From: a virus
Virus record (IMG/VR): IMGVR_UViG_3300042883_000138
Coordinates: 1-38,261 of that record
Length of the DNA stretch: 38,261 nt
Strand: one strand, 5' to 3'
Shown here: positions 127-35,820 of the stretch, in pieces
How positions within the stretch are numbered: position 1 is the stretch's first letter
Layout: each line of letters starts with the position of its first letter
Position numbers and translations under genes: made by a program
Notes under the pieces: model-generated
The model's input: the letters and a program-made list of their open reading frames with translations, nothing else
Database searches by the model: none
What the model was told of the DNA's origin: nothing

Positions 127-426
127 CGACTTCTGACCAGTAGGCGCTCCATACTTAGGCTTACCATCATCTAATCTTCTAAACTTAAAGCCAACACAGA
201 TATCTAAGGCAGTGAAGTAAGGTATAGATATCCAACCTTGATAGCCTTGGTGTCCCTCTATCGGATCTGTGATAGAACCAAGACGATACCTAGCTGCTAC
301 CTCCTCAGATATTCCACGTCCTTCTAGATATTGCAGAGCTTCTGGGCTTATCTCCTGTGCGTAGTGATGAGCCGCTTCCTCCAATAATTTCGCCTGCCCT
401 TGCGAGAGCATCTTTGAACCCCACAT
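1..426 (-). CDS. DNA primase, TOPRIM part (5' portion; continues at 38261)
   Basis: This frame reads leftward from ATG 426 (or ATG 411, which has GGGG about seven bases upstream) off the edge and continues in frame at the right end to the stop at 37903, giving about 218 residues. The start region has the residues typical of the DnaG segment after the zinc finger (QAKLLEEAAHHYAQE, then ALQYLEGRGISEE and RYRLG). After the junction come the TOPRIM motifs: CEGEFDA with the conserved Glu, then GDND, then a PPGMDITDF segment. It should make RNA primers at the phage fork together with the CHC2 protein encoded just upstream in another frame. The 122-nt overlap with that gene means either two overlapping primase genes, as I recall for L5-like mycobacteriophages, or a frameshifted fusion. 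Confidence 0.85.
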   Translation of the reverse strand, partial: MWGSKMLSQGQAKLLEEAAHHYAQEISPEALQYLEGRGISEEVAARYRLGSITDPIEGHQGYQGWISIPYFTALDICVGFKFRRLDDGKPKYGAPTGQKSHLFNVISTMSNTSRVVVCEGEFDAIVMEANCQVPAVGVPGVA

Positions 427-682
427 TCTCTAGTTCCATAATTACATTAACAGCGTTGCCACCCTTGCCACAGGTATGACAGAAATACAAATTGTTATAG
501 GTGTCAATGACTGCGCTCTTGCGAGCATCATCGTGCATACAACAACGTACAGATATGTTGCGACCTTCTTTTACTTCGCCTCCGAAGTGTCTAACTACAT
601 CTGCTATGGAGACTGTGTTTGCATCAGAGTCGCCTTTTGACCTTTTCTTACGAACCACCCTGGACCAGTCTTGTGTTGGCAA
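305..682 (-). CDS. DNA primase zinc-finger (CHC2) protein
   Basis: A 125-residue protein with the DnaG-type CHC2 zinc ribbon: C47-x2-H50 and C68-x2-C71 followed by GKGGNAVN, then the helix VGFKDALARA that normally ends the domain. In DnaG this ribbon contacts template DNA. The frame soon reaches a stop, while the rest of the primase continues in the +1 frame, so the primase is split. The start is TTG at 682, chosen because AAGGAG lies at 690-695 with seven bases of spacing. It overlaps the preceding small cysteine-rich gene by 79 nt. The last 25 or so residues lie in the overlap and look non-conserved. Confidence 0.85.
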   Translation of the reverse strand: MPTQDWSRVVRKKRSKGDSDANTVSIADVVRHFGGEVKEGRNISVRCCMHDDARKSAVIDTYNNLYFCHTCGKGGNAVNVIMELENVGFKDALARAGEIIGGSGSSLRTGDKPRSSAISRRTWNI

Positions 683-891: not shown

Positions 892-1329
892 TTAGTCACT
901 GTTACTTTCCCCCATCTCTGGGACTGTGTTAGATATTTCTTCTTCCAAGCTGTTTTTTTCCACCGCTTTAGCGGTTTTATTGTTGAGGCCATTTAACCAC
1001 TCCTCTAGATTTTGTATTACCCAAGCATCTTCTATGCTGGCTCTGCGCCTCTTAACTATAACGAAGGCGGGAGGCTCAACCACAAGACCCCGCGCCTTCG
1101 CATAGTTGGCTGCCTCAACCTGAGCTTCCGCCCAGAACTGAGGAAGATCTAATGACTTTCTATTCTTACATTCCAGAATATAGGTCTGACCTGCGATTAT
1201 GGTGACAATATCACCCTCGTCATTGGCTCCTGCCTTAGCAAGTCTTTCAGCAAAGTGGCCTAGTTTGCGTAGATACTTCATCACATCTGTCTCAAACTTA
1301 GAACCCTTAGCCTTATTGTAACTAGACAT
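892..1329 (-). CDS. Holliday-junction resolvase-like PD-(D/E)XK nuclease
   Basis: A 145-residue protein with the core of the Hjc/resolvase-like nuclease fold: KGSKFETDVMKYL (E13), then GANDEGDIV (D40) and ILECKNRK (E53-x-K55), the usual acidic triad plus lysine. Such enzymes cut branched DNA intermediates during replication, recombination or packaging. The start ATG overlaps the stop of the RecA-like gene by eight bases, placing it in the replication/recombination operon next to Cas4-like and primase genes. Its exact substrate, junction or other flap, cannot be told from sequence. Confidence 0.8.
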   Translation of the reverse strand: MSSYNKAKGSKFETDVMKYLRKLGHFAERLAKAGANDEGDIVTIIAGQTYILECKNRKSLDLPQFWAEAQVEAANYAKARGLVVEPPAFVIVKRRRASIEDAWVIQNLEEWLNGLNNKTAKAVEKNSLEEEISNTVPEMGESNSD

Positions 1330-2155
1330 AGTTGCTCACATTAGAATTACGGATTGCTCTGCCATAAGAATCAGAGTCAGATATCTGGCAGGTAGCAAAG
1401 TTCACAAAGAGCCCTACATAATCCTTACCATCTGCTTGATGCTTACCAAAACGATTCTTTACTGGTGCAACCCTTAAAGTATTTTCTATTGGGCTATAGC
1501 CAAGAGTAAGTATCATCGCAGGTAACTGACTTACCTTTCCGTGAATAGCACGGCGAGCTGAAGGTTCAGTTGGATTACCATACTCACTCTGTTCTGATAC
1601 GTGATGCAGTACTAACACACAGGCTTCAGTCTTCCTAGACATATCGTGCAACTCAACCATAATCTGGCGCAGTCCTGCCCATTCATTATCAGATTCAGCA
1701 ACAACATTCATTAAGTTATCTATTACGATTAGCTCTGGAGCCAACCCATATAGTTCTATGTAGGCTTTGATTTCCATTTCTATATCATCAAGATTAGGAC
1801 TGGAGTCAAAGACCCATTGTATATGCGACATACTCTCCAAGTACTTATCATAGTAACGAGGATTCTCAGTAATCATTTTCTCAACTGTCTGCTGAGTATG
1901 ACCTGCTGTATGTGCAGATGCTCGCATCATTACTGTAGCGGTATCAGTATCTGCTGAGAAGAATAAAGTAGGAACCTTTGCCTGAATGGTATAGACCAGA
2001 GCGAACATAGACTTACCAGCATTGGGCGCAGCAGCGACCATACATACTTGGCCTCGTCTAAACTTTATATCTTTCTTCTCTAGATCTTTCCATACTGTAG
2101 GCAGGGGTTGTGCTGTAGTACGAGAAGACTTCCAAGCTCTATCTAGTCTAAGCAT
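1322..2155 (-). CDS. RecA/DnaB-like ATPase (AAA_25 type)
   Basis: A 277-residue RecA-fold ATPase. The Walker A motif is AAPNAGKS (residues 42-49) and Walker B is LIVIDN (142-147); the LHH segment at 183-185 fits the sensor strand. It is shorter than DnaB and has no N-terminal helicase domain, resembling the compact helicase/recombinase ATPases of actinophage replication modules. It likely acts at the fork or in strand exchange together with the split primase. GGAGGGG precedes the ATG at 2155 with good spacing, and the start overlaps the WhiB stop by eight bases. Confidence 0.85.
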   Translation of the reverse strand: MLRLDRAWKSSRTTAQPLPTVWKDLEKKDIKFRRGQVCMVAAAPNAGKSMFALVYTIQAKVPTLFFSADTDTATVMMRASAHTAGHTQQTVEKMITENPRYYDKYLESMSHIQWVFDSSPNLDDIEMEIKAYIELYGLAPELIVIDNLMNVVAESDNEWAGLRQIMVELHDMSRKTEACVLVLHHVSEQSEYGNPTEPSARRAIHGKVSQLPAMILTLGYSPIENTLRVAPVKNRFGKHQADGKDYVGLFVNFATCQISDSDSYGRAIRNSNVSNYV

Positions 2156-2420
2156 TATGCCCCTCCCTTGGCAGTATTACATTTCTTTTTCTTCTAGCTT
2201 CTTTTAGGTCAGCCCCTGTAAGGCCACCCCAGATACCAAATCTTTCGTTCTGTATACCCCATTCAGCGCATTCGGATTTATGGACACATCTTCCACAGAT
2301 AGTTTTTGCAAAACTTGTATGGTAACGAGAACTACTGTCTGTCCCAGTAACCTCTGGGAACCAATGGTCTCCTCCGACTTGTGCACATAGCGGAGCCTCG
2401 TATTCACGCGGCTCTCGCAT
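2148..2420 (-). CDS. WhiB-family iron-sulfur transcription factor
   Basis: A 90-residue protein with the complete WhiB signature: C12, then C42-x2-C45-x5-C51, which hold a 4Fe-4S cluster, followed by GIWGG (62-66) and a basic tail (EARRKRN). WhiB proteins bind sigma factors and are restricted to actinobacteria and their phages, so this gene is the main host clue. The ATG at 2420 starts just before the conserved region, four bases after the preceding stop. The frame extends upstream to 2501 but without family residues. It may redirect host or phage transcription together with the sigma-like gene at 36862. Confidence 0.93.
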   Translation of the reverse strand: MREPREYEAPLCAQVGGDHWFPEVTGTDSSSRYHTSFAKTICGRCVHKSECAEWGIQNERFGIWGGLTGADLKEARRKRNVILPREGHNA

Positions 2421-2424
2421 TGTG

Positions 2425-2865
2425 TTACGCCCAAATCGTTGCCGCTTGTTGGTCCTTTGGAACTTTAGCACCAGTCCACTTAGGACCAGTAGCGGGATCA
2501 AACCAACCCTTGTATGGCTTGCCAGTTGCTTGTGCCTTGCCGTGCTTTAGAACCATCTTTCCACGAGAGCACTCTGGTGCGCTTGGGTGGTTGTATACCC
2601 AGATGTTGCCATACTTATCGTTGACAGTTTCTTCTCCGCCAGCAGATACTGGCGCTGATGCTACTGCTGGTGCAGAATTGTAAACGGGAGCAGCAGGTGC
2701 AGCGCCTGCATACGCTTGACTTGTGCTTGTAATAAGGGCAGAAAAGTCAGAAGCTGCTGTTAGCAACCCTTCCAATTCCTCCTTGCTTGTAGCATAAAGA
2801 TTGATGAGGGTTCCATCTGGTGTCTTGAAATTGACTTGGAACTTTGTTGATTCTGGTGCAGCCAC
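2425..2865 (-). CDS. Hypothetical protein with KHGKAQATGKPYKGWF segment
   Basis: About 146 residues. The N-terminal half looks like a small alpha/beta unit (FQVNFKTPDG). An Ala/Pro-rich linker of about 35 residues follows, and the C-terminal part contains CSRGKMVLKHGKAQ and KPYKGWFDP. Similar 'C..G.m....gk..GkpYkgwF' ends occur in actinophage early proteins of unknown role. I choose GTG 2865 because GGAGG at 2874-2878 is eight bases upstream and the Cas4-like gene stops one base before; ATG 2880 is the alternative. A link to DNA metabolism is inferred only from neighbours. Confidence 0.7.
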   Translation of the reverse strand: MAAPESTKFQVNFKTPDGTLINLYATSKEELEGLLTAASDFSALITSTSQAYAGAAPAAPVYNSAPAVASAPVSAGGEETVNDKYGNIWVYNHPSAPECSRGKMVLKHGKAQATGKPYKGWFDPATGPKWTGAKVPKDQQAATIWA

Positions 2866-2866
2866 T

Positions 2867-3808
2867 TTACTTACCTCCATTATGTTTAATTGAAAGGCGC
2901 AGACTTTCCTTGCCTTTTATTGTTGGACAAAAGCCGATGAGTTGCTCGACTGCATCCTTATCTACTTGCGTAGGTCCAGCTACTGATGTCCAACGGACTT
3001 CAACTCCAGTAGCTGTGACACCGACAACCCCACTAAGAGCTTCTTTAATAGCATCCTTCTTGGTTGTCAATTCTTTTATCTTCTGATCTATCTGTAGATA
3101 TTCCAAAGCCTGATTACTAGACTCATCACTTTCAATGAGCGGTAACTCAGTCTTTGTACGTTCTTTTTTTAGACCAACGCATCCAATCTCACCAGATGCG
3201 TCAAAGTATTTACAATAGAACTTGCAGTAGCTCTCATCCTTTTCAGGTTCAGGAGCAACCTCACTGGTCTTAATAGCCTCTAACCAAGAGAGGGCTTCGA
3301 GCGCAACAGCAGGGTCATACTTCTCCGTATGGACCTTGACATCGCGCTCGTCACCGTCTCGCGGTATTGCTACCAGATGAACATTAGTAACCTTCCCCAA
3401 GCCACTTTGTTCTATCAGGTATCCGTAAGTTTGTATTTGCCAGCGTTGCTGCTGACTTGGAAAGTAAGTGAGGTTCTTCAACTTCACTGTCTTCCAATCC
3501 ACTACATCGCCTGTCCCAGGAATGTAGAGATCTACGTGAGCCTTCATTCCGTTATGTTCTACTGTTTGCTCTAGCAAAACTTCTTTGTTATTAGATAAAG
3601 CATTCTCTATAGAGTTATGGATAGCAGTACCCATAATAGCTGCGAGCTTTAGCTCTCCGCCATTGGTCTTTTCTTGTCCGTTTAATTTATACCAGACCTT
3701 ACGCCGACAGCCACCTAACTCTGATGGACCTATCTGTGTCTGCAGTGACCTGCCTCTACTGTTCTCTTTCTCGTAGAGAGCCTTAACTAATAAATCTTTT
3801 ATATCCAT
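2867..3808 (-). CDS. Cas4/RecB-like exonuclease with iron-sulfur cysteines
   Basis: A 313-residue PD-(D/E)XK nuclease. Visible motifs in order are C34 (GGCRRKVWY), G60-x3-H64, D93 in HVDLY, D104-W-K106 and the QIQTYGYL helix, then C195, C199 and C210. The single early and three late cysteines match the 4Fe-4S staple of Cas4/AddB-type nucleases. Such enzymes resect DNA ends and in phages support recombination. No CRISPR array or cas1/cas2 is present, so this is a replication-module enzyme. Residues beyond about 225 form a predicted coiled-coil and a C-terminal extension. Confidence 0.88.
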   Translation of the reverse strand: MDIKDLLVKALYEKENSRGRSLQTQIGPSELGGCRRKVWYKLNGQEKTNGGELKLAAIMGTAIHNSIENALSNNKEVLLEQTVEHNGMKAHVDLYIPGTGDVVDWKTVKLKNLTYFPSQQQRWQIQTYGYLIEQSGLGKVTNVHLVAIPRDGDERDVKVHTEKYDPAVALEALSWLEAIKTSEVAPEPEKDESYCKFYCKYFDASGEIGCVGLKKERTKTELPLIESDESSNQALEYLQIDQKIKELTTKKDAIKEALSGVVGVTATGVEVRWTSVAGPTQVDKDAVEQLIGFCPTIKGKESLRLSIKHNGGK

Positions 3809-3978
3809 TTATGCTTTTCCCACCTAGTTATTGTGAAGCGGAATACTATCAGATTTATTACTAACATTCTAGCAATTAACCTGTATGGCATAGTGTCATA
3901 GTCGTGAAAGTAATCAATACCAAGGCCCCAGTTATTCAAACTACCAAAGCTGAAGTGAATTGAATAGTCTCGTATCAC
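3799..3978 (-). CDS. Small hypothetical protein (59 aa)
   Basis: The gap between two larger genes is filled by a frame of 59 residues starting MIRDYSIHFS. It starts at GTG 3978, overlapping the preceding TGA (GTGA), with AAGGAAGGA a few bases upstream, and its stop overlaps the Cas4-like start. The protein is aromatic-rich (NNWGLGIDYFHDY) with a hydrophobic stretch near residues 35-50 (ARMLVINLIVF). No known family is recognised. The strong SD and the coupled ends make it convincing as a gene. Confidence 0.75.
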   Translation of the reverse strand: MIRDYSIHFSFGSLNNWGLGIDYFHDYDTMPYRLIARMLVINLIVFRFTITRWEKHKWI

Positions 3979-4541
3979 GTTATTATCCTTCCTTGAGAGA
4001 CTAATTGAATCGGTGGACAGGTATTGATGTCAAGGATGCTGGCTATTTGAACAGCGCGTTCGGCGTGTTGGTCAATGTTGCCTAACGTAAGACGATTAAC
4101 GCGACCATATAGATAGCCGAGAGCATAAGCGCCACCACTACCCAAGCCGTAAATACCTTTGTCGGACTGGATGAACGAGAGGTCAGTTGCAATATGGAAT
4201 AGGTTGCCATCAAACGCGACAAGGTAGTCGAACCCTGTTTCTTTATCTTTGGTTGCTTCATACGGGTCGTATCCATTCTCTTTGAAAGCCTTCAGGATTG
4301 AAGGCATAACTTTCTTACCCATCCACTGCACGGGATCAGCTCCCTTGTAGGGTGGCGGACTCCAGTTGTAAGCCAAGATATCAGCAGGCCTGGAATCTCC
4401 TACCAGTCCTATCAAGTATCTACCAACGTTAATAATCTTTGGCGTAGTACTACTTATAGTCCGTAAGTTATCTTCAGTAATCTGGCTATCAGCAGCCAGT
4501 ATCACCATATCTTCAATCTGTATTCCTACCAGTGTCGTCAT
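3975..4541 (-). CDS. Proteasome beta / HslV-like Ntn hydrolase
   Basis: A 188-residue protein with the Ntn-hydrolase fold of proteasome beta and HslV. It starts MTTLVGI, so removing Met exposes Thr1. D17 (AADSQ), Lys34 (TPKI; Lys33 in the family) and Gly47 (GLVGD) fall at the family's catalytic positions, and GLGSGG sits where the conserved GSG motif does. It should cut peptides or act as an amidase, if it assembles. No ATPase partner (Mpa, HslU) is encoded here. Start ATG 4541 is chosen because the frame upstream to 4670 lacks family residues and would bury Thr1. It is the first gene of the leftward early operon. Confidence 0.85.
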   Translation of the reverse strand: MTTLVGIQIEDMVILAADSQITEDNLRTISSTTPKIINVGRYLIGLVGDSRPADILAYNWSPPPYKGADPVQWMGKKVMPSILKAFKENGYDPYEATKDKETGFDYLVAFDGNLFHIATDLSFIQSDKGIYGLGSGGAYALGYLYGRVNRLTLGNIDQHAERAVQIASILDINTCPPIQLVSQGRIIT

Positions 4542-4682
4542 AGCAGAGAAATATACCTTCCATCGGCGTGTCGTACCAGTAACGACACACCTTGTCATTA
4601 AACTATGAGCGGAGCGAATAAACAGTAACAGCGTTCCGAGCCGCCAAGGGCGGCGAGAGGCGACTGACATCAGGAAGGAGCC
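4542..4682. promoter_or_regulatory. Divergent promoter region with two dyads
   Basis: This gap separates the leftward early operon from a rightward gene. A perfect inverted repeat GTGTCGT/ACGACAC lies at 4568-4588 with a 7-base spacer. Leftward, TATATT (4550-4555) is eight bases before ATG 4541, suggesting a nearly leaderless transcript whose -35 region overlaps the dyad. Rightward, TTGTCA (4592-4597) and GAATAA (4616-4621) are weak -35/-10 candidates. A GC hairpin GCCGCC/GGCGGC (4640-4654) lies in the rightward leader before the SD at 4671-4680. The promoter calls are inference. Confidence 0.45.
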
Positions 4683-4919
4683 GTGAACTCAGTGTTGTTC
4701 CGTCTACTTCGGCTGCTTAGAATACCACCAGTCAAAGCAGCAGATCTCAGGTCCCTTGGACCTACTCACGTCTGTAGCTGTGGTTGTACTATGTTTAACA
4801 TTATGGCTCAGTTCCAAGACTATGAGATATCCTGGTACTTTCTTGATGCTACCTGTGTCAACTGCGGTAATCTAGTTCGTATCCCTTGTCCTGTTGATAA
4901 CAACGAGAATAGTTTTTAG
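4683..4919 (+). CDS. Zinc-ribbon protein, isolated rightward gene
   Basis: A 78-residue protein with C31-x-C33-x-C35 and C58-x2-C61, spaced like a phage zinc ribbon of the kind 'C-CG...F...ldatC..CG'. An aromatic patch (EISWYFLDATC) lies between the knuckles. GTG 4683 follows AGGAAGGAG at 4672-4680, and the SD core is close but usable. It is the only rightward gene outside the accessory operon and is transcribed towards the terminator at 4932-4961. Its role is unknown; small zinc ribbons in phages often modulate host transcription. Confidence 0.75.
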   Translation: MNSVLFRLLRLLRIPPVKAADLRSLGPTHVCSCGCTMFNIMAQFQDYEISWYFLDATCVNCGNLVRIPCPVDNNENSF

Positions 4920-4921
4920 GC

Positions 4922-4961
4922 ATAAAAAAAGAAGCCCCCACCCCGTTAGGGATGAGGGCTT
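4922..4961 (-). terminator. Bidirectional intrinsic terminator ending the late operon
   Basis: AAGCCC (4932-4937) pairs with GGGCTT (4956-4961), and inner CA/TG and CCC/GGG pairs surround a GTTA loop, interrupted by two C-A mismatches. On the minus strand the hairpin is followed by TTCTTTTTTT (4931-4922), the classic form, so leftward late transcription past the holin should stop here. The rightward gene ending at 4919 also runs into it and is followed only by TTTCC. Confidence 0.85.
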
Positions 4962-9977: not shown

Positions 9978-10892
9978 TTATTTTGTGTAGTGGATACGAA
10001 TTGGATATTTGTCTGCCAACTTCAACGATTCCTCTTGTAGTCGTTGTTGATACAGAGCAAAAACATAACGAGAAGCAGATGCACCAGAGTTGTACGGATT
10101 CTTGGTGTCATTAAGGTCAGCCTCAGCACTAGTAAGATTGATACGACCAGTGTCAAGGAATGATAGAAGTTTGTAGCAGGCACCGAGGATGGTTACATCT
10201 ACTGTGCTTGCAGGCAGACCAGTGACATCTGCATAGTCATCGGTACTAGCATCAAGGGTATTACCTTCTGTTGTATACCAGACCTGAACGGTACGACCAG
10301 GTTGTATGTTTTCATAGATGTTCACCGTATTGTTAGTATTAAAGGTCGCAGCATTTGCCATTGGGTCTGCTCTCCAACGGTTAATAGGTAACCATTCCTG
10401 AGAAGAACCTGTAGTCTGCCAAGACATATACAAAATTGATTCCAAATCATCAGGTAAAGCATAGGTAGTCTGTGATGCGTTGAATGTAAAGGTAGTTGAA
10501 CTTACTGCCCAGAGTTTAGGGAAGTAACTGTTGATAGTATCGTTGATAGCCTTCTTTATGCTGATACGTGGGAAGGTTGGAGCTAGTGTTACTTGAGCAT
10601 ACTGTGCGTGTGGTGATGCTGTGGTTCCTTGGAAGCCACGACCAATCGGGTTAGTCGGAGCACCCATAACGTTGAGAGTATTGTTTGTCTTGTTGAAGGA
10701 ATCAATCCAAATCAACTCATCATCAATTTCAATCAAACCTTTGGCAAGGTTATCTCCTGAACCAACCTGAATTGACAAACTAGAAGTCGTCAGACCAGCC
10801 GAGTTATTTACATAAGTGATGCGATCTTGACGAAGAGAATAACCCTGTAGGTTAGTCCGTACCTCGTCTATCATCTCCGACAGTGTTGGCAT
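9978..10892 (-). CDS. Tail adaptor-like (tubular A-type) structural protein
   Basis: A 304-residue protein starting MPTLSEMIDEVRTNLQGYS. A helical N-terminus is followed by a beta-rich middle with IEIDDELIWID and IGRGFQGTTASPH, and a helical C-terminal region (YVFALYQQRLQEESLKLAD). I read it as a head-to-tail adaptor or tail-tubular protein of a short-tailed phage; no single motif proves this. ATG 10892 has GGAAGGAAAC directly upstream, so I prefer it to ATG 10916. It overlaps the end of the glycosyltransferase gene by 41 bases. Confidence 0.6.
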   Translation of the reverse strand: MPTLSEMIDEVRTNLQGYSLRQDRITYVNNSAGLTTSSLSIQVGSGDNLAKGLIEIDDELIWIDSFNKTNNTLNVMGAPTNPIGRGFQGTTASPHAQYAQVTLAPTFPRISIKKAINDTINSYFPKLWAVSSTTFTFNASQTTYALPDDLESILYMSWQTTGSSQEWLPINRWRADPMANAATFNTNNTVNIYENIQPGRTVQVWYTTEGNTLDASTDDYADVTGLPASTVDVTILGACYKLLSFLDTGRINLTSAEADLNDTKNPYNSGASASRYVFALYQQRLQEESLKLADKYPIRIHYTK

Positions 10893-11952
10893 TGTTTCCT
10901 TCCGTATACCAGCCATCTCCCCACAGAGTTTCTAATCTGCGGAAGTATTTCTCATATTGCTTCGCAATAACATCTACGGAGTAGAGCGATACTGCTCTCT
11001 CTCGTATTGCCTTGCGATCTAAGTTCTTGACATTCTGAGTTGCCAAGACGAATTCTTCAACGTTGCGACATCTAAAGCCTGTCACACCTTCTATAACAGT
11101 TTCAGTAAATGCACCCCAGTCTGTAGTAATTACTGGAGTTCCGCAGGCTTGTGATTCAATGTTCACATTACCAAAGGGTTCTAGGTATAGAGTCGGTACA
11201 AATGTAGCGATTGCTCCACCCATCAACTCTGCTCGCTTCTCAGGTCCAACAGGTCCGATATACTCACCATAGTTCGGGATATGTGGGCCAGGTCCTGCAA
11301 AGATTAAACGAGCACCGATAAGTTTGCAGATATGCGCTGCGATATCTATGCCTTTACGTGGAACCATTCTGCCTATGTAAAGGTAATAATCTCCATCGCC
11401 TTTACCTAGCGGGAACATATCAGGATCTAAGTAACCTGGAATGACCGCATCAAAGAATGAACCATCTACTTGCGCTGCGTTCTGATGTTGAGCGTAGACT
11501 GCGTGCATCCAGGCATATGATTCAAATACTCGATACTTAGAAAAGATACCTGAGTATCCAACACCGAACTCCACTGTCATCATATGTGGCAGTGCATCTG
11601 AGATTGGCTTATGACTTGCTCCGCCAATGACACAGATAAAATCTGTCTTCTCTGCTCGCTTCTTAATCTCAGCAGCAGCCTTCTTATTAAACTTCTGCCA
11701 GTGAGGTAAACGGTAATCAAACGGTGCTTCTACATAAGGCTTGTTACCTACGACAATACGTCGTTGCGTTTCAGTGATACAAGGAATAAGTTCATCTACT
11801 TCGGCTTCATTCTTTTCGCCTGCGTAGAGATAGACTGTATGGCCTAAGCCCTTCATCATATTGCAGAACCTGCGTACCTTTTCAGTGTACGCACAGCCTG
11901 CGAAATCTTTAGTTGTGTTAGTATGTGGTAGTGCTACGACGTGGAATCTCAT
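10852..11952 (-). CDS. GT-B glycosyltransferase (family 4-like)
   Basis: A 366-residue glycosyltransferase. The second Rossmann domain shows YLYIGRMVPRKGID, then FAGPGP and LEPFGNVNIESQACGTPVI, which is the donor-binding E-x7-E region of retaining GT4 enzymes. It probably transfers a sugar from a nucleotide donor. Its place among fibre genes suggests glycosylation of virion proteins such as the collagen-like fibre, or alteration of host surface glycans; the target is inferred. It is followed by the adaptor gene with an overlap. Confidence 0.85.
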   Translation of the reverse strand: MRFHVVALPHTNTTKDFAGCAYTEKVRRFCNMMKGLGHTVYLYAGEKNEAEVDELIPCITETQRRIVVGNKPYVEAPFDYRLPHWQKFNKKAAAEIKKRAEKTDFICVIGGASHKPISDALPHMMTVEFGVGYSGIFSKYRVFESYAWMHAVYAQHQNAAQVDGSFFDAVIPGYLDPDMFPLGKGDGDYYLYIGRMVPRKGIDIAAHICKLIGARLIFAGPGPHIPNYGEYIGPVGPEKRAELMGGAIATFVPTLYLEPFGNVNIESQACGTPVITTDWGAFTETVIEGVTGFRCRNVEEFVLATQNVKNLDRKAIRERAVSLYSVDVIAKQYEKYFRRLETLWGDGWYTEGNNANTVGDDRRGTD

Positions 11953-11961
11953 ACCACAATT

Positions 11962-12546
11962 CTACTGAAAACCCTGGAAATCGGAGACTAACTCGCCGCG
12001 TAAATCTGAGAATCCATCGTGTTGAATTACCAGATTTGGATGGGCAATATAGGCATTAGTCCTGTTAGCCCAGACCCTATAGGCAATGTCTATATGGCGG
12101 TCAAACTCTCTGGCTATCTGGATAAATAAATCTACCTTGGCTGGGTTGACACAATAGGCTTGAGTCCCTGTTGAGACTACCTGTCTGACCCAGTGTTTAT
12201 TGACTGGCTTAGTCTCATTTTTTACTGCTCCTAGATAGAAGATATCCCAGTCTTCGGGCAGGTCTGCCATATATTCATCAAAGACCTCATTGAAGTCTTC
12301 TCTAAATTTAGCATCATCTTCGCAGATAAGAACCATCTCATCTGGCTTTATCTTTCGTAGAACCTCTATATGACTTAACCTGCCAGCCACTATCGGGTCC
12401 ATACCTAGGAACTGTCCATCCATTGCTGAATGTACTTCAAAGTCAAAGCCAACTGTTTCGGCTTCTTTACGGAACTGCTCTAAACGATCTGAACGCCTAT
12501 TGACATTGATGACAATAATTCTGTCAAAGTATTTGTCGAGACTCAC
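11962..12546 (-). CDS. Glycosyltransferase family 25-like protein
   Basis: A 194-residue protein resembling GT25 (LPS or collagen galactosyltransferase) enzymes: it starts with FDRIIVINVNRRSDR and has the EDD motif in LICEDDAKF (E76-D78). A later segment, QAYCVNPAKVD, fits the acceptor region. Family members include enzymes that modify hydroxylysine in collagen, which is intriguing because a collagen-like fibre gene is two genes upstream. The start is GTG 12546 with AGGTGG four bases upstream. I am confident in the family but not the acceptor. Confidence 0.82.
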   Translation of the reverse strand: MSLDKYFDRIIVINVNRRSDRLEQFRKEAETVGFDFEVHSAMDGQFLGMDPIVAGRLSHIEVLRKIKPDEMVLICEDDAKFREDFNEVFDEYMADLPEDWDIFYLGAVKNETKPVNKHWVRQVVSTGTQAYCVNPAKVDLFIQIAREFDRHIDIAYRVWANRTNAYIAHPNLVIQHDGFSDLRGELVSDFQGFQ

Positions 12547-12831: not shown

Positions 12832-14654
<1,823 letters not shown>

Positions 14655-14658
<4 letters not shown>

Positions 14659-22617: not shown

Positions 22618-25600
22618 TTACTCTCCTATCAATCTAGCAAAAAGAACATCAAATGCCATCTGAGCATTTGGGTCTTGCTCTGCTAATTCTTTTAAGCGAG
22701 CCTTAATATTTGTTTTCATTAAGTCGCGGTAATTCTGTGCGGTCTCAGTATTGCTTGTAATAGTATCTCTGGTTACCTGATAATTGTCTAACTCTGCAAC
22801 CATTTGACGAAGGACTGATCTTGTTTTTGGTTGAGTCTTAATGTCTTCATCATTGAGCATATCTCTAAGGTCTTTGTAAGCCTTATAGCGTTGAATCTGG
22901 CGAGAGCCACCAGAGCCTAGCTCTTCTTGCATTAGAGGCTTGGTGCCTTTGTATTGGTCTGACCATAGCTGCCATCTTTTGCGTAACTGTGATTTAGCGG
23001 AGTCATTAAAGATGTTTGTAAGTTGTGCTTCATATAAATCTTTTTGTTGATAGTAGTACTGGATATCTCTAGCAGTCTGCACTTCTCTCAAGAAGTCAGA
23101 GGTTGTCTTACTTACCTTTATTCCTGTATCAAATAGCAATCTATAAGAGTCAAAGTCAAAGTCTCCTACAGAAGGAATTAAGAATGGAGCACCTTCTGGG
23201 TACTTCTTGAGTAGGTCTTTGTTCTTTTCAATCCAATCACCAGAGCCATTAACAGATCTTACCAGAGCAACTGTGGTGCGGTCAGACTCAGACACAGCAT
23301 ATGGCATCTGGTCTGGAAATAGACGAATCCATTCTTTTGTGGTCTTGTCAATATCGCCATTGTAACTGTTTAGTAACTGATTAAAGACCTGCTTATATGA
23401 AGTACGCTCATTATCGCGCACCCATTGAGCCATTTCGCTTTTAAGGGTTAGCTGAGGCGATGCTGGGGCTACGAATCCAAATAGGAAACGTAAACCAAGA
23501 ACGGTCATTGTTGATGCTTCTAGTTTTTCTTTATATGCTTGAACTTCACCAGGCGTTGGCGCTTCTTCAAGGCCAGTCTCAGGGTTAATCTTAGGCTTAA
23601 CACCATAGCCTGCAGCCTCTAGGTAAGTAGCAGCCTTGCGAAACGCTGAAGCGTATTGACTAGAACGTTCATCCTTGTTTAACAGAGCCAATGCTTTATT
23701 CACGTGACCAGGTAGCACCGCATTGATAAGTGGTTGGTCTTCACCATATTGACCGACAAGAGCAGACTCAATCTTATCTAGTTGAGGTACTGCACGGAAA
23801 ATTAACTGTAACGGCAATGCTGCAATAGGACCAGCAAATGTTGGGAACAAAGAGTCTGGGTTCATTGATGGTGTAATCATCTTTAATTTACCACCGAACT
23901 CAACAGGTATTGGTGCCTTAAATGCCTCTGGCATACCAAAGACAGTAGCTACCTTGTTCATAACTTTATACACAGGAGTTAAACCTGGGTAGAAAAAGTA
24001 TTGGTCTCCATTATCATCCGTCTGTACAAAGCCAGAATGAGCAATGCCTTCATAAGTCAACGCTGCGCGTTGGATAGACTCTGGGTTATATTTAGCGGAA
24101 CGATAGATACGGCGGTAAAAGTCTTCGGTTGCACGATAGAATCTAGCGAAGTTACGACTTGACATAGCAAGTTGACTACGCACTGCTGGATTATCAACAA
24201 AAGAAAGAACGCGAGTGGTTGCCATCTCTTGCGCCATTTCAGTAATGTATTTCTTACCGTTTTCCTCACCTAATTGTTTAATTAAATGAGCCTCAAGACC
24301 TGAAGATCGCATATCTTTGCGAACCTTTGCATAAGCATCAAGGCCAATAGGGTGACGGGATAGACGAGCATTAGCTTGGCCCATTATATCCCACACTTTT
24401 TCGCTTATGGATGGCAGAAACTGTCCTGTATCTGATATCGGTATAAGTTCTGGGCCATAAATAAATTCTGGAGTAAGTCCTTCTTCGGACAATCTACGCA
24501 TATCATTAAACTTCAGATTTTTAGCAGAGACTACTACGTCTCCAGATTCGTCAGTGAAACGAATTTTATTTAATAACTTGATGTTAAAGCCACCATCACG
24601 AGTAGATAATAAATTAAGAATATCTTCTACATTCTTGCGTGCCAATACTTCAGTTGAATAACCTTTTTGAATGGCTTCAAACTTATTAAGTTCTTTAGGT
24701 GACAGATTATCTAAATATTGCCTAAGAGCAGTAACTGCTTTGGCGTTATCATCAATATTACCAGGGACAATATTCTTAATAACTAAAGACGACATTGGAC
24801 TTTTGGCTTCAATACCTAAAAGCGCATAAAGACTCATTAAGGACTGGTCACTCGCAGCAGGGTTGATATTTGTATAACCTTTACCGTAAGACTTAGTATA
24901 TTTTACGCCATCAATTTCTAATGCGCCAAGTTTTCCAAATTGCTCTACATCGTCTGCTACTTGAATAAAACGGTCTGTTCCTCTAAAAGCATTTTTAGCG
25001 CCTTCTCCAAGGTCACCCAAAAATCTATCTGCATCAGAATATGTTACAAGATCGCTAACATACTCACCAATCTCATCATCAAAATAATTAACAAACTTAG
25101 ACTCTGTAACTGCCCTAGATGTCACCTTACGAGCTGCGTTCACATCTCCAGCTTCGATACCTTTTGTTATTTCATCTGTATATTTCTTAGCAGAACGTGC
25201 AGCAAAAAGACGATTTATGAAACCCATATCACCTTTTGCTGCTGCATATTTACGAGCAATGAACTGACCTTTGACAATACCCCAAGCAGAATCTCCTACC
25301 AATAAATGGAGACCTAAATCCTCAGATGCGTTACGTATAGGAAAGCGAGGGCCTGCAAGGGTTGTAATAGTCCAGCCTGATGTTAGCTTATTAGCCCAGT
25401 CTTTATGGGAGATGCCCATAATCCCATCAATAAGTCCAGACCTAACTGCAAATTTATCAATATCGCTTACAGATGGAGCAGCAATACCTTCTGCTAACTG
25501 CCAATCTTTAATAGCAAGTTGTTCGCCATCAAAGTTTGATGGTGAGTATTTAGTAAAACTTACTTTACCTGTAGCCTCATCAACGTTTCTTACGGTTATA

Positions 25601-27336
25601 CCTGCAGAATATTGGTCTTTGCGAGCAATCTTATTGAATGAACCAACGAAACGCTGTGCTCCTGTGGACTTTGTTAGACCACGCACTTCAAATACAGTAT
25701 TATAGAGTCCTTTGAATATTTGACGGCGTTGACCTTCATTACCTGCACTAAAAGTCTCAGCAATAATACGTGAATGATAACGAGTATTAGCAAGTCGAGC
25801 TATACGGTATATCTGATCTGGAGCAGCCGCAGCCATTGGGTCAAAAAACCCATTAGGAAAATACGGAATTGTTGTAAACTTACGAGCAAATCTATCTAAG
25901 CGACCTTGAATCTGTGCAAGTGGCATACGAAATGAGCCATCCTTGCCCTTCTTAAATACTGCCTTGCCGCCTTCTTCTTCAATACGGCGCACACCAATAC
26001 GTCCAACAAAGGCTTCTACATCTGCAATCTCATCTGCACGTTGAGTTAAGCCTGTTGCCACATCTGCAAGTTGCGGTTCTGCGCCATAAAGAGCTTGAAC
26101 AACCCTACGCCCTACAGCATCAATGTTAAGTACTTTATCGGTTGTGGTAAAGAAACCAATTCTAGCCTTACGTGCAGCATTAAGGACTGGAACAAGTGGC
26201 GCTCTTCGCGCTGCTTGGCCTTGTAATATGGTTTTAACGTCAACAACATTTTGTAGATAACCTTTTGCTGTTGCAGAATCTTTAACACCAGCTTTAATAA
26301 ACTCATCTACTGCTGCAGGTCCAAACTCTGGAGACAATCTACGTAAGCGTTTAGATGCTTCTTCTCCAGCAATAGGGTTTCTAGCGCTACGAGCTGTAGA
26401 TAAATCTTCCAAAGCCTTGCCATACTCGTCAAAAAACTTAGTTACACCTGGATTAGAAAACACTCTATCTAGGTTCTGTGTATTTTCAGGACCAACAACG
26501 GACATAAGGTTACGTCCATAGGAAAACTTTTCTTTTCCTAGTACGTTAAATAACAGATAGTCACCAGCATCGTAGGCTTTTTTAGCCTTACCAAGAATTA
26601 AAGTAGGATCTGCAAAGAACCTATAAGAAGCATCAACAAAACCTGATATACCTTTGTATAAAGCGCCAGAACCTTCAAGTTGCTCAGGGAGTAATAAGTT
26701 TGCTAACTGACGACCTGGTGAATACTTGGACGCTTGAACGGCATCTAGCGCATCTTGGAATAAATCATCTTTTTTCTGGGCAGCATTAGCTGCAATTACT
26801 TTTTGAGTTTCATTTCCTGATGCAATTATTGCGTCCAGGCTTTCACCCTTAGCAATACGCATAGCAATGTCAACTCTGTCTGAGCCATACTTTGCTTTTG
26901 CTTGAGTAATACGAGAAGGAGAGAATACTGAATCACCTTTATCGTTTGCAATATCAAAAGCCTTTGATATGTTAACGTCTTGGTCTAAAGCAATAGCACC
27001 TGTGCGATAAAGTCGAGTCATAAAATCTGACGCTTCACCTAGGGCAGAAAGGCCACGACCTAAAGTCTCTTTGACGGCAATACCTGCATAGTGTTTAGCA
27101 TTACCAAGCCAACCACGTTGCGGATTTACTGGGTCTTCATCTCCACCAAGTAAGCCAACCATAGCATTTTGTTGGCCTTGCGGTAATTGATTAAATTGCT
27201 GTTGTGCAACAGTTGATGGCATAGCAAGTAAGTTTTTATGAGTATTAAGAAGTTTACCTAAACCATCAATTTGTTTTTTTTGCTGAGGGGTTAGATTTGC
27301 ACGAAGAGCTGCAGCTTGTAGGTTCTCTTGAGCCAC
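22618..27336 (-). CDS. Giant internal/ejection protein (1572 aa)
   Basis: The longest gene, 1572 residues, about 12% of the genome. The N-terminus is Gln-rich (TPQQKKQIDGLGKLL; FNQLPQGQQNAM), and most of the rest is long helices rich in Ala, Lys, Asp and Glu, with few clear hydrophobic segments. In a genome without tail tube genes, a protein this size next to other internal proteins fits a DNA-ejection protein that forms a channel across the cell wall; a tape-measure role is the alternative. No lysozyme or protease motif is evident to me. It starts at GTG 27336. Confidence 0.7.
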   Translation of the reverse strand: MAQENLQAAALRANLTPQQKKQIDGLGKLLNTHKNLLAMPSTVAQQQFNQLPQGQQNAMVGLLGGDEDPVNPQRGWLGNAKHYAGIAVKETLGRGLSALGEASDFMTRLYRTGAIALDQDVNISKAFDIANDKGDSVFSPSRITQAKAKYGSDRVDIAMRIAKGESLDAIIASGNETQKVIAANAAQKKDDLFQDALDAVQASKYSPGRQLANLLLPEQLEGSGALYKGISGFVDASYRFFADPTLILGKAKKAYDAGDYLLFNVLGKEKFSYGRNLMSVVGPENTQNLDRVFSNPGVTKFFDEYGKALEDLSTARSARNPIAGEEASKRLRRLSPEFGPAAVDEFIKAGVKDSATAKGYLQNVVDVKTILQGQAARRAPLVPVLNAARKARIGFFTTTDKVLNIDAVGRRVVQALYGAEPQLADVATGLTQRADEIADVEAFVGRIGVRRIEEEGGKAVFKKGKDGSFRMPLAQIQGRLDRFARKFTTIPYFPNGFFDPMAAAAPDQIYRIARLANTRYHSRIIAETFSAGNEGQRRQIFKGLYNTVFEVRGLTKSTGAQRFVGSFNKIARKDQYSAGITVRNVDEATGKVSFTKYSPSNFDGEQLAIKDWQLAEGIAAPSVSDIDKFAVRSGLIDGIMGISHKDWANKLTSGWTITTLAGPRFPIRNASEDLGLHLLVGDSAWGIVKGQFIARKYAAAKGDMGFINRLFAARSAKKYTDEITKGIEAGDVNAARKVTSRAVTESKFVNYFDDEIGEYVSDLVTYSDADRFLGDLGEGAKNAFRGTDRFIQVADDVEQFGKLGALEIDGVKYTKSYGKGYTNINPAASDQSLMSLYALLGIEAKSPMSSLVIKNIVPGNIDDNAKAVTALRQYLDNLSPKELNKFEAIQKGYSTEVLARKNVEDILNLLSTRDGGFNIKLLNKIRFTDESGDVVVSAKNLKFNDMRRLSEEGLTPEFIYGPELIPISDTGQFLPSISEKVWDIMGQANARLSRHPIGLDAYAKVRKDMRSSGLEAHLIKQLGEENGKKYITEMAQEMATTRVLSFVDNPAVRSQLAMSSRNFARFYRATEDFYRRIYRSAKYNPESIQRAALTYEGIAHSGFVQTDDNGDQYFFYPGLTPVYKVMNKVATVFGMPEAFKAPIPVEFGGKLKMITPSMNPDSLFPTFAGPIAALPLQLIFRAVPQLDKIESALVGQYGEDQPLINAVLPGHVNKALALLNKDERSSQYASAFRKAATYLEAAGYGVKPKINPETGLEEAPTPGEVQAYKEKLEASTMTVLGLRFLFGFVAPASPQLTLKSEMAQWVRDNERTSYKQVFNQLLNSYNGDIDKTTKEWIRLFPDQMPYAVSESDRTTVALVRSVNGSGDWIEKNKDLLKKYPEGAPFLIPSVGDFDFDSYRLLFDTGIKVSKTTSDFLREVQTARDIQYYYQQKDLYEAQLTNIFNDSAKSQLRKRWQLWSDQYKGTKPLMQEELGSGGSRQIQRYKAYKDLRDMLNDEDIKTQPKTRSVLRQMVAELDNYQVTRDTITSNTETAQNYRDLMKTNIKARLKELAEQDPNAQMAFDVLFARLIGE

Positions 27337-33290: not shown

Positions 33291-33346
33291 TTGACAAGAT
33301 AGAAGAGCCTCCGCTATCCTCGTCTTATGGGCTCAAAGTGGGCTCA
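33291..33346 (+). promoter_or_regulatory. Promoter of the rightward accessory operon with tandem repeats
   Basis: TTGACA (33291-33296) and TATCCT (33315-33320) are 18 bases apart, a good sigma-70-type promoter. Immediately after, GGGCTCA repeats at 33329-33335 and 33340-33346, exactly 11 bases (one helical turn) apart, overlapping the expected start site near 33327. The pair looks like an operator. The first gene starts at 33360. Confidence 0.65.
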
Positions 33347-33359
33347 TAGATAGGCAGTA

Positions 33360-33500
33360 ATGATTAAAAAATGTGATGAGTGTGGAAAGTCTTTTGATGT
33401 ATTTAATGAGGGAAATGTATCTAATTACAATGTTGCGCTCTGCGGTAATTGTTGGAGCGTTGAAGCTATGAAGCGCGGGATTATTAAGGAGGCTATCTAA
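33360..33500 (+). CDS. Zinc-ribbon microprotein (46 aa)
   Basis: A 46-residue protein starting MIKKCDECGKSF with C5-x2-C8 and C28-x2-C31 (ALCGNCW), two knuckles of one zinc ribbon. It is the first gene after the promoter. The stop overlaps the next start (TAATG). It may act on host RNA polymerase or ribosomes like other small phage zinc proteins; no partner is visible. Confidence 0.78.
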   Translation: MIKKCDECGKSFDVFNEGNVSNYNVALCGNCWSVEAMKRGIIKEAI

Positions 33501-33730
33501 TGAAATGGGGAACGCGTATAGGCAGGATCCAAATCACTATCAAGGGAACGCCCCGCGCTCATTGGTATTACTGGATTAAGAGAGAGGGGGCTCATAACTG
33601 GAAGGCGGGTTATTATGGATTCGGGGCGGAGATTCCTTACCGTGAGACCTTTACTACCAGCGCTAAGGCTCGCGCCTATTGCGAGGCGAAAGACCGTGAA
33701 GCGGTAATCATCGAAGAAATAAGAGCGTAG
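33500..33730 (+). CDS. Hypothetical small basic protein (76 aa)
   Basis: A 76-residue protein starting MKWGTRIGRIQITIKG, aromatic-rich (HWYYWIKREGAHNWKAGYYG). AAGGAGG seven bases upstream is a strong ribosome site. Beta-rich, unknown family. Confidence 0.68.
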   Translation: MKWGTRIGRIQITIKGTPRAHWYYWIKREGAHNWKAGYYGFGAEIPYRETFTTSAKARAYCEAKDREAVIIEEIRA

Positions 33731-33744
33731 TGCTTGCCTTTCCT

Positions 33745-33766
33745 CGTAGGGTTATACTATCCTACG
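33745..33766. promoter_or_regulatory. Hairpin with TATACTAT loop
   Basis: CGTAGG (33745-33750) and CCTACG (33761-33766) are a perfect inverted repeat flanking GTTATACTAT. TATACT in the loop resembles a -10 box, but no -35 fits well. It is in the 78-base gap before a longer gene; it may be an attenuator or an operator. Confidence 0.4.
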
Positions 33767-33808
33767 GGGGAGGGGAGGGACTAGCCTCCAATTATGAAAG
33801 GATAAGAA

Positions 33809-34174
33809 ATGAACGCAACACTTAGCAAGAAAGCGCAGAAAGAGCAAGAGAGGGAGAACGCTCGCGTTTACCTTTTAAGCATATTAAACAAGCAAAACAA
33901 GCCGACACTCTACACAAACCTCAAGAGCGTTTCCTCGTCTGGTATGTCTAGGGATATGAAAGTACTCGCTGCGGTAGAGGGTGAAATCGTAGATGTGACC
34001 TATTATGTCGGAAAGTTAGACATTGGCACGATTAAAGAGCGCAACGGGCAACGTGTTATCCGTGTTGGCGGTTGCGGTATGGATATGGGTTTCCACGTGG
34101 TCTATTCTGTGTCTGCTGTGTTATATGGATATGAAGAGCGCGGGGCTTACACTATCCGCCACGAGTGGATTTAA
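33809..34174 (+). CDS. Conserved actinophage protein with VGGCGMDMGF motif
   Basis: A 121-residue protein with a helical start (KKAQKEQERENARVYLLSIL) and a body containing SSSGMSRDMKVLAA and RVGGCGMDMGFHVVYSVSAVLYGYE. The combination SGMSR plus VGGCGMDMGF is one I know from many actinophages, function unknown. AAAGGA precedes ATG 33809. Confidence 0.78.
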   Translation: MNATLSKKAQKEQERENARVYLLSILNKQNKPTLYTNLKSVSSSGMSRDMKVLAAVEGEIVDVTYYVGKLDIGTIKERNGQRVIRVGGCGMDMGFHVVYSVSAVLYGYEERGAYTIRHEWI

Positions 34175-34184
34175 GGGGGAACGC

Positions 34185-34382
34185 GTGATTAAAGCATACG
34201 AAACAGAGGGACACGGTATTTATTGGCAGGTTTTCGAGTGGGAGAGTGGAGACACCAAGCACCTCGGAGACCTTGAAACCCTTGAAGATGTTATGAAACT
34301 ATCGAGGGAGAGGAAATTACCTTTAACGCTCTACACCCAAGAATGGGCAGAGACTTTCGAAAAAGAGGAGGCGAGCAAGTGA
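34185..34382 (+). CDS. Hypothetical small protein (65 aa)
   Basis: A 65-residue protein starting at GTG 34185 after GGGGGA, with YWQVFEWESGDTKHLGDLETLEDVMKL; acidic and helical at the end. The upstream in-frame stretch to 34023 lies inside the previous gene and is not taken as coding. Its end overlaps the next start (GTGA). Confidence 0.66.
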   Translation: MIKAYETEGHGIYWQVFEWESGDTKHLGDLETLEDVMKLSRERKLPLTLYTQEWAETFEKEEASK

Positions 34383-34528
34383 GCCTTGACTTCATACTAG
34401 AGCGCCTAACTAGCGTGCAGGTGGGGGGCTTTTGGGCTTTAATGCAGGTTATTATCTACGCCCTAGTAATCTATCTAGGGCTAGTAATCATAAGCAAGAT
34501 AACCGATAAGAGAGAGAGAGGGAGATAA
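34379..34528 (+). CDS. Single-span membrane microprotein (49 aa)
   Basis: A 49-residue protein starting at GTG 34379 with GAGGAGG seven bases upstream. A hydrophobic helix covers residues 17-40 (FWALMQVIIYALVIYLGLVII) with a basic tail. Membrane location is likely. No family recognised. Confidence 0.68.
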   Translation: MSLDFILERLTSVQVGGFWALMQVIIYALVIYLGLVIISKITDKRERGR

Positions 34529-34608
34529 TGAGTAAGATAAAGTATGAGCCAGAGATAGATGACCTAATCAAGATGAAAGAGGAGGAGGAAGGTAATGAGA
34601 ACGCCTAA
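34528..34608 (+). CDS. Acidic microprotein (26 aa)
   Basis: A 26-codon frame starting MSKIKYEPEIDD with an EEEEG end. The TAATG start and a GGGAG site upstream support it, but its length makes it uncertain. It overlaps the next gene by 14 bases. Confidence 0.42.
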   Translation: MSKIKYEPEIDDLIKMKEEEEGNENA

Positions 34609-34747
34609 CCTATACACCTGCGTAAAGTGCTACACCGACATAGAAGAAGATGATGTTGTGTGGGCAGATAGCAAGGGAAATGTGGAGATACACACTTACG
34701 CATACTGCGTGGGGTGCTTACCAAATCAGGAGGAAGCAAGTGAATAA
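34595..34747 (+). CDS. Zinc-ribbon microprotein (50 aa)
   Basis: A 50-residue protein with C9-x2-C12 (YTCVKCYT) and C38-x2-C41 (AYCVGCLP). GAGGAGGAGGAAGG upstream of ATG 34595 is a strong ribosome site. It is the second zinc ribbon of this operon; function unknown. Confidence 0.75.
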   Translation: MRTPNLYTCVKCYTDIEEDDVVWADSKGNVEIHTYAYCVGCLPNQEEASE

Positions 34748-34913
34748 GGAATACTATCAAGCTAAGGCAGACCTATGCCGAGGACTAGCAATAAAGCAAA
34801 TGGTGGAGGGGGAAGCGAAGGAGGCAGGTGCTAACCTAATTCGTATGGTCAATGCCCTAAATCAAATCAACTTAATCAACTATAAGGAGGAGAAGGATAA
34901 TGAAGCCAGTTAA
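34740..34913 (+). CDS. Small helical protein (57 aa)
   Basis: A 57-residue protein from GTG 34740 (AGGAGG upstream), starting MNKEYYQAKADLCRG with a long helical segment (GEAKEAGANLIRMVNALNQIN). The longer in-frame stretch upstream to 34650 lies inside the zinc-ribbon gene and is not taken. No family recognised. Confidence 0.66.
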   Translation: MNKEYYQAKADLCRGLAIKQMVEGEAKEAGANLIRMVNALNQINLINYKEEKDNEAS

Positions 34914-35127
34914 TTTCTATGAGGTAATGGATCATAAGGCAGAAGTGGAGTGGGGTGGGGCGAGTGTAAGCGAGGCTATCACTTGGTTCAGGCGTGGTCT
35001 TGATAGGTCTATCCTAGTGAGTGTATGGGACGAGCAGAGCGAGGACGATTTCAAGCTCATCACAGATAAGATAGATGTGACTGCCCTAGTCTTGGCTACC
35101 ATAACAAGTGAGAGGGAGAAGGCGTGA
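34900..35127 (+). CDS. Hypothetical protein (75 aa)
   Basis: A 75-residue acidic protein starting MKPVNFYEVMDHKAEVEW, with SEAITWFRRGLDRSILVSVWDEQ and an end of TSEREKA. AAGGAGGAGAAGG upstream. Alpha/beta pattern, unknown family. Confidence 0.68.
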   Translation: MKPVNFYEVMDHKAEVEWGGASVSEAITWFRRGLDRSILVSVWDEQSEDDFKLITDKIDVTALVLATITSEREKA

Positions 35128-35210
35128 TATTTCTAGGCGTAATACTTATGACTATCCTTGCCTACCTGCTCATAGTATGGGAGGATAAGCTCAATGAAAA
35201 CGATAGATAA
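35124..35210 (+). CDS. Membrane microprotein (28 aa)
   Basis: A 28-residue frame from GTG 35124 (GTGA overlap), MIFLGVILMTILAYLLIVW then a charged tail. Almost all is one membrane helix. Such short membrane proteins are hard to prove, but the coupled start and the AGAAGG upstream support it. Confidence 0.55.
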   Translation: MIFLGVILMTILAYLLIVWEDKLNENDR

Positions 35211-35789: not shown

Positions 35790-35820
35790 GAGTTACTTAT
35801 CCTTTCACTTAGCGTAAGAG

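Follow-up and report, generated by a model that had tools for sequence, protein, structure and literature searches.

Proteasome-like proteins encoded by phages are already a known kind (PMC8665760, PHROG 1040). In 2021, Fuchs, Alva and Lupas gave the names PPH and AAH to phage-borne group I homologues of the proteasome, and CPH is also a member of this group of proteasome-like proteins (PMC8665760). In that study, genomic context and co-occurrence gave no functional hint for the new homologues, a co-occurring AAA+ partner was not found for the novel ones, and AAH was not found in actinobacteria-specific phage (PMC8665760). The closest characterized relative, the beta-proteobacterial proteasome homologue BPH, forms a 14-mer and has no known AAA+ partner; it is inert on standard peptides and casein, but inhibitors do label its Thr1 (PMC5777263). 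As the family also includes connectase, a specific protein ligase (PMC8665760), the proteasome fold by itself is no proof of proteolysis.

Genes of the 'peptidase HslV family' occur in hundreds of phages, and relatives of a Pantoea phage protease are found in 170 phage records, mostly of T5-like Salmonella and E. coli phages. Among cultured actinophages, members of the Ntn family are annotated as 'protease' in Arthrobacter Hum25 and Pitbull and in Microbacterium Pumpernickel, and g89 of phage RXM is a BPH by annotation. Our literature search found neither experimental work or activity data for a phage proteasome homologue nor a description of a protease swap or a wandering gene position.

In this study, we analyzed such a gene in a virus record of 38,261 nucleotides (IMGVR_UViG_3300042883_000138), the whole of which is called the window here. 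A 126-bp direct terminal repeat (1-126 and 38134-38259) lies inside its toprim gene, and the window is therefore probably a complete circular genome. Because it carries WhiB, a marker of actinophages (PMC6802176), and because the annotated phages nearest to its terminase are Planktophila E7 and F5 (46%) and Streptomyces phages such as Immanuel3 (44%), an actinobacterial host, probably one of the Nanopelagicales, is well supported, in agreement with an earlier note made from the sequence alone. E7 and F5 (records OX376640/OX376641, assembly name LanE43-AprF5) were the first phages of 'Ca. Nanopelagicales' to be brought into culture (PMC10202952). They infect 'Ca. Planktophila' and share a family with the window by gene order and by the identities of terminase (46%), portal (49%) and coat (53%). 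Like the window, they possess an Ntn hydrolase gene, but theirs follows the portal gene and encodes a protein about 30% identical to that of the window. The gene was absent from the Streptomyces cousin phage Immanuel3.

Catalytic residues, fold and family placement

The gene and the codons of its catalytic residues are located as follows.

3975 to 4541, minus strand: proteasome-like Ntn hydrolase (group I, BPH/HslV type), 188 amino acids, without propeptide
4538 to 4536, minus strand: codon of Thr1
4490 to 4488, minus strand: codon of Asp17
4439 to 4437, minus strand: codon of the Lys33 equivalent
4400 to 4398, minus strand: codon of Gly47

The reading frame starts with ATG at 4541, has Thr as its second codon and runs for 188 codons, with the stop included at 3975. 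Its translation begins MTTLVGIQIEDMVILAADSQITEDNLRTISSTTPKIINVGRYLIGLVGDSR, and the plus-strand translation of 3975-4541 is riddled with stops. The protein matches Pfam Proteasome (PF00227; 4e-6, 27.0 bits against a cut-off of 22.4) and PHROG 1040, 'peptidase HslV family' (1.6e-23, residues 1-184). The reading frame that the earlier note had picked out is thus genuine, and the Thr1, Asp17, Lys at 34, Gly47 and GSG motif that it had read there are all in place. With Thr counted as 1, the lysine at position 34 aligns to Lys33 with a one-residue shift, and GSGG occupies residues 133-136 (134-137 with Met as 1).

These residues are maintained throughout the family. Consistent loss of Thr1 and Lys33, which the earlier note had named as an observation that would count against its reading, was looked for in 211 distinct homologues and not seen: the first residue is Thr in 197 and Ser in 6 (203/203 of the aligned residues), Asp17 is present in 207/207, Lys33 in 210/210 and Gly47 in 206/210, with Ser in the other four. 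Across 44 aligned diverse homologues, all of which match PHROG 1040 as their sole family, Asp17, the lysine, Gly47 and the GSGG glycines are invariant and Thr1 is nearly so. The catalytic residues are kept down to 20-30% identity, and nearly all homologues start with Met-Thr/Ser and have no propeptide. The window gene is under purifying selection, with a dN/dS of about 0.05-0.3 relative to near relatives and differences that are mostly silent. We consider it likely that the protein is an active peptidase. In two close homologues (L020 and L026), an Ile codon replaces the start Met and a usable upstream start is absent, which reflects either a rare start codon or a sequence error.

An AlphaFold2 model of the single chain, computed from an alignment of the window protein with proteins of the fetched loci, reached a pLDDT of 90 and a pTM of 0.86. 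Foldseek placed HslV and BPH at the top, with a probability of 1.00 for the 50 PDB matches listed; matches to transglutaminases in the PDB were rejected as local chance similarity. In VIA-align, BPH was again first (Z 19.7, rmsd 2.7, 173 residues, 24% identity), and proteasome beta, HslV and M. tuberculosis PrcB came next, all within about one Z unit of it (Z about 19, 165-175 residues). When a profile of the phage proteins alone, built without BPH rows, was compared with PDB sequences, BPH was the best match (6.5e-12), followed by HslV and then eukaryotic beta5. The proposal of a proteasome-beta/HslV-like Ntn fold in the earlier note is therefore borne out, and the window protein is an Ntn hydrolase of the proteasome-beta/HslV type that belongs to group I, on the BPH/HslV side.

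Within this group, the window protein shares with PPH, AAH, CPH and PHROG 1040 the fold, the Thr/Ser1-Asp17-Lys33-Gly47 set, the compact subunit, the lack of a propeptide and of an AAA+ partner, and its occurrence in phages. Assignment to PPH is ruled out by its length and by helix H2: PPH has about 140 residues and lacks H2, whereas the window protein has 188 residues with both H1 and H2 (helices at residues 50-59 and 70-88, which follow the fifth strand). It could be an AAH by length, helices and host phylum, although its group, unlike AAH in the 2021 study, includes actinophages (PMC8665760). BPH (PDB 5ovs, 5ovt and 5ovu), the best structural and PDB profile match, is bacterial, forms a 14-mer double ring, is only about 24% identical and falls in a separate clade of the tree. 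HslV (ClpQ) has the fold and catalytic set in common with the window protein, but the NCBIfam HslV models TIGR03692 and NF003964 gave 26.8 and 27.8 bits against equivalog cut-offs of 157.75 and 137, and the window has no HslU-type partner. In trees with HslV and BPH as references, these two, a PPH-like phage group and the phage group that contains the window protein all stand apart from one another. Support is moderate for the last group as a whole (84/53) and good for its separation from BPH and HslV, and the window protein branches apart from the PPH-like phage proteins (98/96), a label that we assigned ourselves. A scan of genome contigs returned distant bacterial homologues alone, most of them BPH-like.

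The same data bear on the question, raised in the earlier note, of whether the protein derives from host prcB, and on its suggestion that the protein could poison or retune the host particle, which would mean mixing into the 20S proteasome. Actinobacteria often have proteasomes, and M. tuberculosis PrcB has the same fold (Z about 19) and the same Thr1 chemistry. However, identity to 20S beta and PrcB is only about 16% in the structural alignment, the bacterial 20S beta model TIGR03690 (PrcB) did not match at E values up to 0.1, and the protein, which has neither an alpha partner nor a propeptide, belongs to group I and is closer to BPH and HslV. Moreover, its catalytic set is fully retained, which a poison would not need, and relatives occur in phages of hosts such as Salmonella and Vibrio, which are not known to have a 20S proteasome. 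Both the origin from prcB and the action on the host particle are thereby weakened, and we regard the latter as extremely unlikely.

Position of the gene in the window and across the phage family

Other features of the window, including the boundaries of what we call the protease slot, are listed below.

33291 to 33320, plus strand: sigma-70-type promoter-like site TTGACA-18-TATCCT, before a small-gene block (consensus scan)
4932 to 4961, minus strand: terminator-like hairpin with a T run, 13 pairs of which 8 are G-C (consensus scan alone)
4683 to 4919, plus strand: zinc-ribbon-like protein of 78 amino acids (CxCG...CxxCG), divergent, upstream boundary of the slot
4542 to 4682, minus strand: divergent intergenic leader with ATTCGC (4619), GCTCATA (4610) and the inverted repeat GTGTCG...CGACAC(GCCG) at 4588-4564
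3799 to 3978, minus strand: small reading frame of 59 amino acids overlapping the Ntn stop codon, found in 74 of 80 close loci
2867 to 3808, minus strand: Cas4/RecB-like PD-(D/E)XK exonuclease by Pfam and PHROG, downstream boundary of the slot and anchor of the census
2425 to 2880, minus strand: putative SSB-like protein, matched by PHROG 364 alone and labeled from its position
2148 to 2501, minus strand: WhiB-like regulator (Pfam Whib, 6.2e-10)
1322 to 2155, minus strand: DnaB-like replicative helicase (PHROG 243, 9.9e-75)
892 to 1329, minus strand: RusA-like/Hjc-like resolvase (PHROG 244, 8.3e-27)
305 to 682, minus strand: zinc-finger part of a DNA primase (Pfam, 1.3e-13)

Read along the minus strand, the lysis genes are followed by the hairpin, the divergent zinc-ribbon gene, the 141-bp leader, the Ntn gene, the 59-residue reading frame and the exonuclease, and then by the genes for the SSB-like protein, WhiB, DnaB, the resolvase and the primase, with toprim and a sigma factor extending over the terminal repeat. 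The hairpin separates the slot from the end of the lysis/late block, and by this gene order the Ntn gene heads the replication block. The claim that it heads an early operon is thus upheld as far as its place is concerned, being first after the hairpin and leader, but the best promoter-like site lies elsewhere, at 33291 on the plus strand. This site is the best sigma-70-type match in the two stretches scanned, in which the count of such matches did not exceed that in shuffled sequence; together with the block of small reading frames that it precedes (33291-35800, plus strand), it is a more plausible early region than the Ntn block.

The leader contains ATTCGC...GCTCATAnTnTA followed by the inverted repeat GTGTCG...CGACACGCCG, and the blocks ATTCGC, GCTCATA and CGACACGCCG are invariant across 14 aligned loci. 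The element GCTCATANTNTA occurs once per locus or genome in nearly all close relatives. The conserved leader element was considered as a repeated promoter and rejected, as no further match to the long form was found in the window with up to 3 mismatches. Two Rfam matches in the region, both on the terminator-like hairpin, were far below the gathering score, and since the RNAalifold consensus energy is almost nil (-0.34 kcal/mol), we do not call the leader a structured RNA. It is a candidate for a promoter or operator particular to the clade, which the phage sigma factor or WhiB might recognize. The zinc-ribbon gene on its other side adjoins the Ntn gene in 75 of 80 close loci and is present in 127 of the 130 loci of the census described below; its product gave no match in Pfam or PHROG. 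It has a GTG start preceded by the ribosome-binding site GGAAGGAG.

Elsewhere in the window, a collagen-like protein of 608 amino acids with GPTG repeats (12832-14658, minus strand) is encoded amid glycosyltransferase-like reading frames (10852-12546), and a protein of 1572 amino acids without a PHROG match (22618-27336, minus strand), probably an internal virion protein, is encoded between the portal and tail genes.

Exactly one copy of the Ntn gene was found by profile search in each of 30 relative records, but not always in the same place. Within a syntenic phage family (identities, where covered, of 46-85% for terminase, 49-92% for portal and 51-90% for coat), the gene occupies at least four places: between the zinc-ribbon gene and the exonuclease in the window and G003, directly after the portal gene in F5, after the coat gene in G009 and G010, and after the primase gene in G015. 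These differences reflect either relocation or independent acquisition. Because of them, an early position is not a family trait, timing cannot be read from position family-wide, and the suggestion that the protein acts soon after infection does not hold in general.

The places next to the portal gene in F5 and shortly after the coat gene in G009 and G010 raise the question of a head-assembly protease acting on prohead or scaffold, the more so as no other prohead protease was recognized among the window proteins scanned. However, every census locus from the clade of the window has the gene opening the replication block, at the far end of the genome; in G015 it follows the primase gene, in T5-like phages it is found among nucleotide-metabolism genes, and a separate scaffold-like gene stands beside the coat gene. 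We therefore consider a role in head assembly very unlikely. In four unrelated large phages (L178, L179, L180 and L175), the Ntn gene is located among genes for RNR, PhoH, thymidylate synthase, ThyX and MazG.

Alternation with a small HExxH protein in the same slot

In one near-complete relative of 41 kb (G043) that lacks the Ntn gene, the slot holds a protein of 110-122 amino acids with the motif HEVTHAVIHE.

L284, positions 489 to 857 (G043; also L311-L351): small HExxH protein, probable metalloprotease (zincin)

The HExxH motif is kept in 44/44 relatives of this protein, and an invariant FxxEEVCD lies past it, which perhaps holds the third zinc ligand. The protein showed similarity to DUF6782, a putative metallopeptidase (1.1e-5, below the cut-off), and a weak match to M78. 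Its AlphaFold2 model has a pLDDT of 87, and the top structures, although matched weakly (Z 4-5.3), are all HExxH peptidases, namely SPRTN, PprI/IrrE, minigluzincins and Wss1. By motif and by these weak matches, it is probably a metalloprotease of the minigluzincin/M78-like type. In 41 of 44 cases, its gene is flanked by the zinc-ribbon gene on one side and the exonuclease on the other.

The two proteins exclude each other in the sampled loci. Among the 28 family records, the zincin is present in G043 alone, and a profile that matches all 30 Ntn records found no Ntn protein in 14 long zincin records (0/14). Loci were then counted by fetching them through the exonuclease alone, independently of what the slot contains. 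The first scan gave the Ntn gene in 58/58 loci with upstream sequence, and the second, centred on the G043-like exonuclease, gave 58 loci with Ntn and 14 with zincin (n=72). The resulting 130 loci, which include some near-copies and whose intervening reading frames were annotated in part, comprise 116 with Ntn and 14 with zincin; none has both genes, and none lacks both. In a tree built from 105 exonucleases, the slot content changes at least eight times by parsimony, and at least three changes are forced by well-supported branches; replacement has thus been repeated. About half of the zincin loci have related leader motifs ahead of the gene, and CGACACGC is found before 22/41 zincin genes and 81/115 Ntn genes, relative to a background of about 0.09 per kb. 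Neither this zincin swap nor the movement of the gene between modules is described for PPH, AAH or CPH in PMC8665760.

Because of this alternation and the repeated swaps, proteolysis is favored as the activity under selection, and the virus seems to require a protease of some sort in the slot, not the Ntn hydrolase in particular. A non-degradative function, either as a specific amidase, which the earlier note had listed as an option, or as a connectase-like protein ligase, would find a precedent in connectase itself and in the lack of general protease activity of BPH (PMC8665760, PMC5777263). However, it is difficult to reconcile with the replacement of the protein by a probable metalloprotease in close relatives, and the model lacks the large insertion between strands 3 and 4 that is the signature element of connectase; we judge it distinctly unlikely. 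It may also be asked whether the slot is a mere accessory-gene hot spot in which two proteases ended up as unrelated cargo by chance. The gene does move, as its several other places in related genomes indicate, but a hot spot would sit uneasily with the absence of both a third gene type and an empty slot from the 130 loci, and with the related leader motifs that many of these loci have ahead of either gene. We consider this explanation unlikely, while leaving it some weight.

Proposed function and significance

No HslU/ClpX-type AAA_2 domain (PF07724) was found over the cut-off in the window or in 27 relatives, whereas 14/14 control genomes were positive, and the statement of the earlier note that no unfoldase partner is encoded stands. 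An AAA protein of the PF00004 type exceeds the cut-off in 12 of the 28 records but is absent from the window and its close clade, and so cannot be a general partner. One could therefore imagine that the Ntn chamber borrows a host AAA+ unfoldase (ClpX, ClpC or Mpa/ARC) and degrades folded host proteins in the manner of HslV with HslU. The fold on the HslV side would agree with this, and since the phage encodes no unfoldase, folded substrates would require a host partner. On the other hand, it is hard to see how a single-domain zincin of 110 residues, which replaces the protein at the same locus, would use such a partner; none is known for BPH, the nearest relative with a solved structure (PMC5777263), and the novel homologues of the 2021 study had no co-occurring AAA+ partner (PMC8665760). 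A borrowed unfoldase seems to us improbable rather than far-fetched.

Considering the conserved catalytic set, the replacement by a probable metalloprotease and the absence of AAA_2, Thr1 proteolysis without a dedicated unfoldase is the simplest explanation. In the scheme that we infer, which extends to Met removal, ring, activity, unfoldase independence, target and timing, the host methionine aminopeptidase would remove Met and expose Thr1, which together with Asp17 and Lys33 would cleave peptide bonds. By analogy with the BPH 14-mer (PMC5777263), the protein probably assembles into a homo-oligomeric ring of its own. As such a ring would work without a phage unfoldase, its substrates would be unfolded, loosely folded or specifically recruited proteins, and the inertness of BPH in vitro makes narrow specificity or a cofactor likely. 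Limited proteolysis of specific targets is likewise the more probable mode of action than bulk turnover. The selected activity would be the proteolysis of some host or phage protein, exerted from a protease slot that in this actinophage clade stands at the head of the replication block and can be filled by the probable HExxH metalloprotease instead. We place somewhat better than even confidence in this reading as a whole, that is, in a self-compartmentalized, unfoldase-independent Thr1 peptidase in a swappable protease slot.

What is new here is that the gene occupies at least four places within one phage family and that its slot alternates between Ntn hydrolase and zincin, with several swaps between close relatives. 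Actinophages are added to the carriers of group I homologues, and genome context provides a first functional clue for homologues that had none in the 2021 study, as the strict alternation indicates that selection probably acts on protein cleavage. The question can be addressed experimentally because cultured carriers exist, including Planktophila E7/F5, Arthrobacter Hum25 and the E. coli K-12 phage SuperGirl, and the two proteins provide a matched enzyme pair for finding one shared target. Tentatively, and with somewhat less than even confidence, we propose that phages of the dominant freshwater actinobacteria need a protease at the start of replication and that this need is met interchangeably by a threonine peptidase or an unrelated minimal zinc metalloprotease, exchanged for each other several times at a single locus and acting on the same target. 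If this is true, both enzymes would cut the same host or phage protein, in what would be a convergent proteolytic step in the takeover of the cell.
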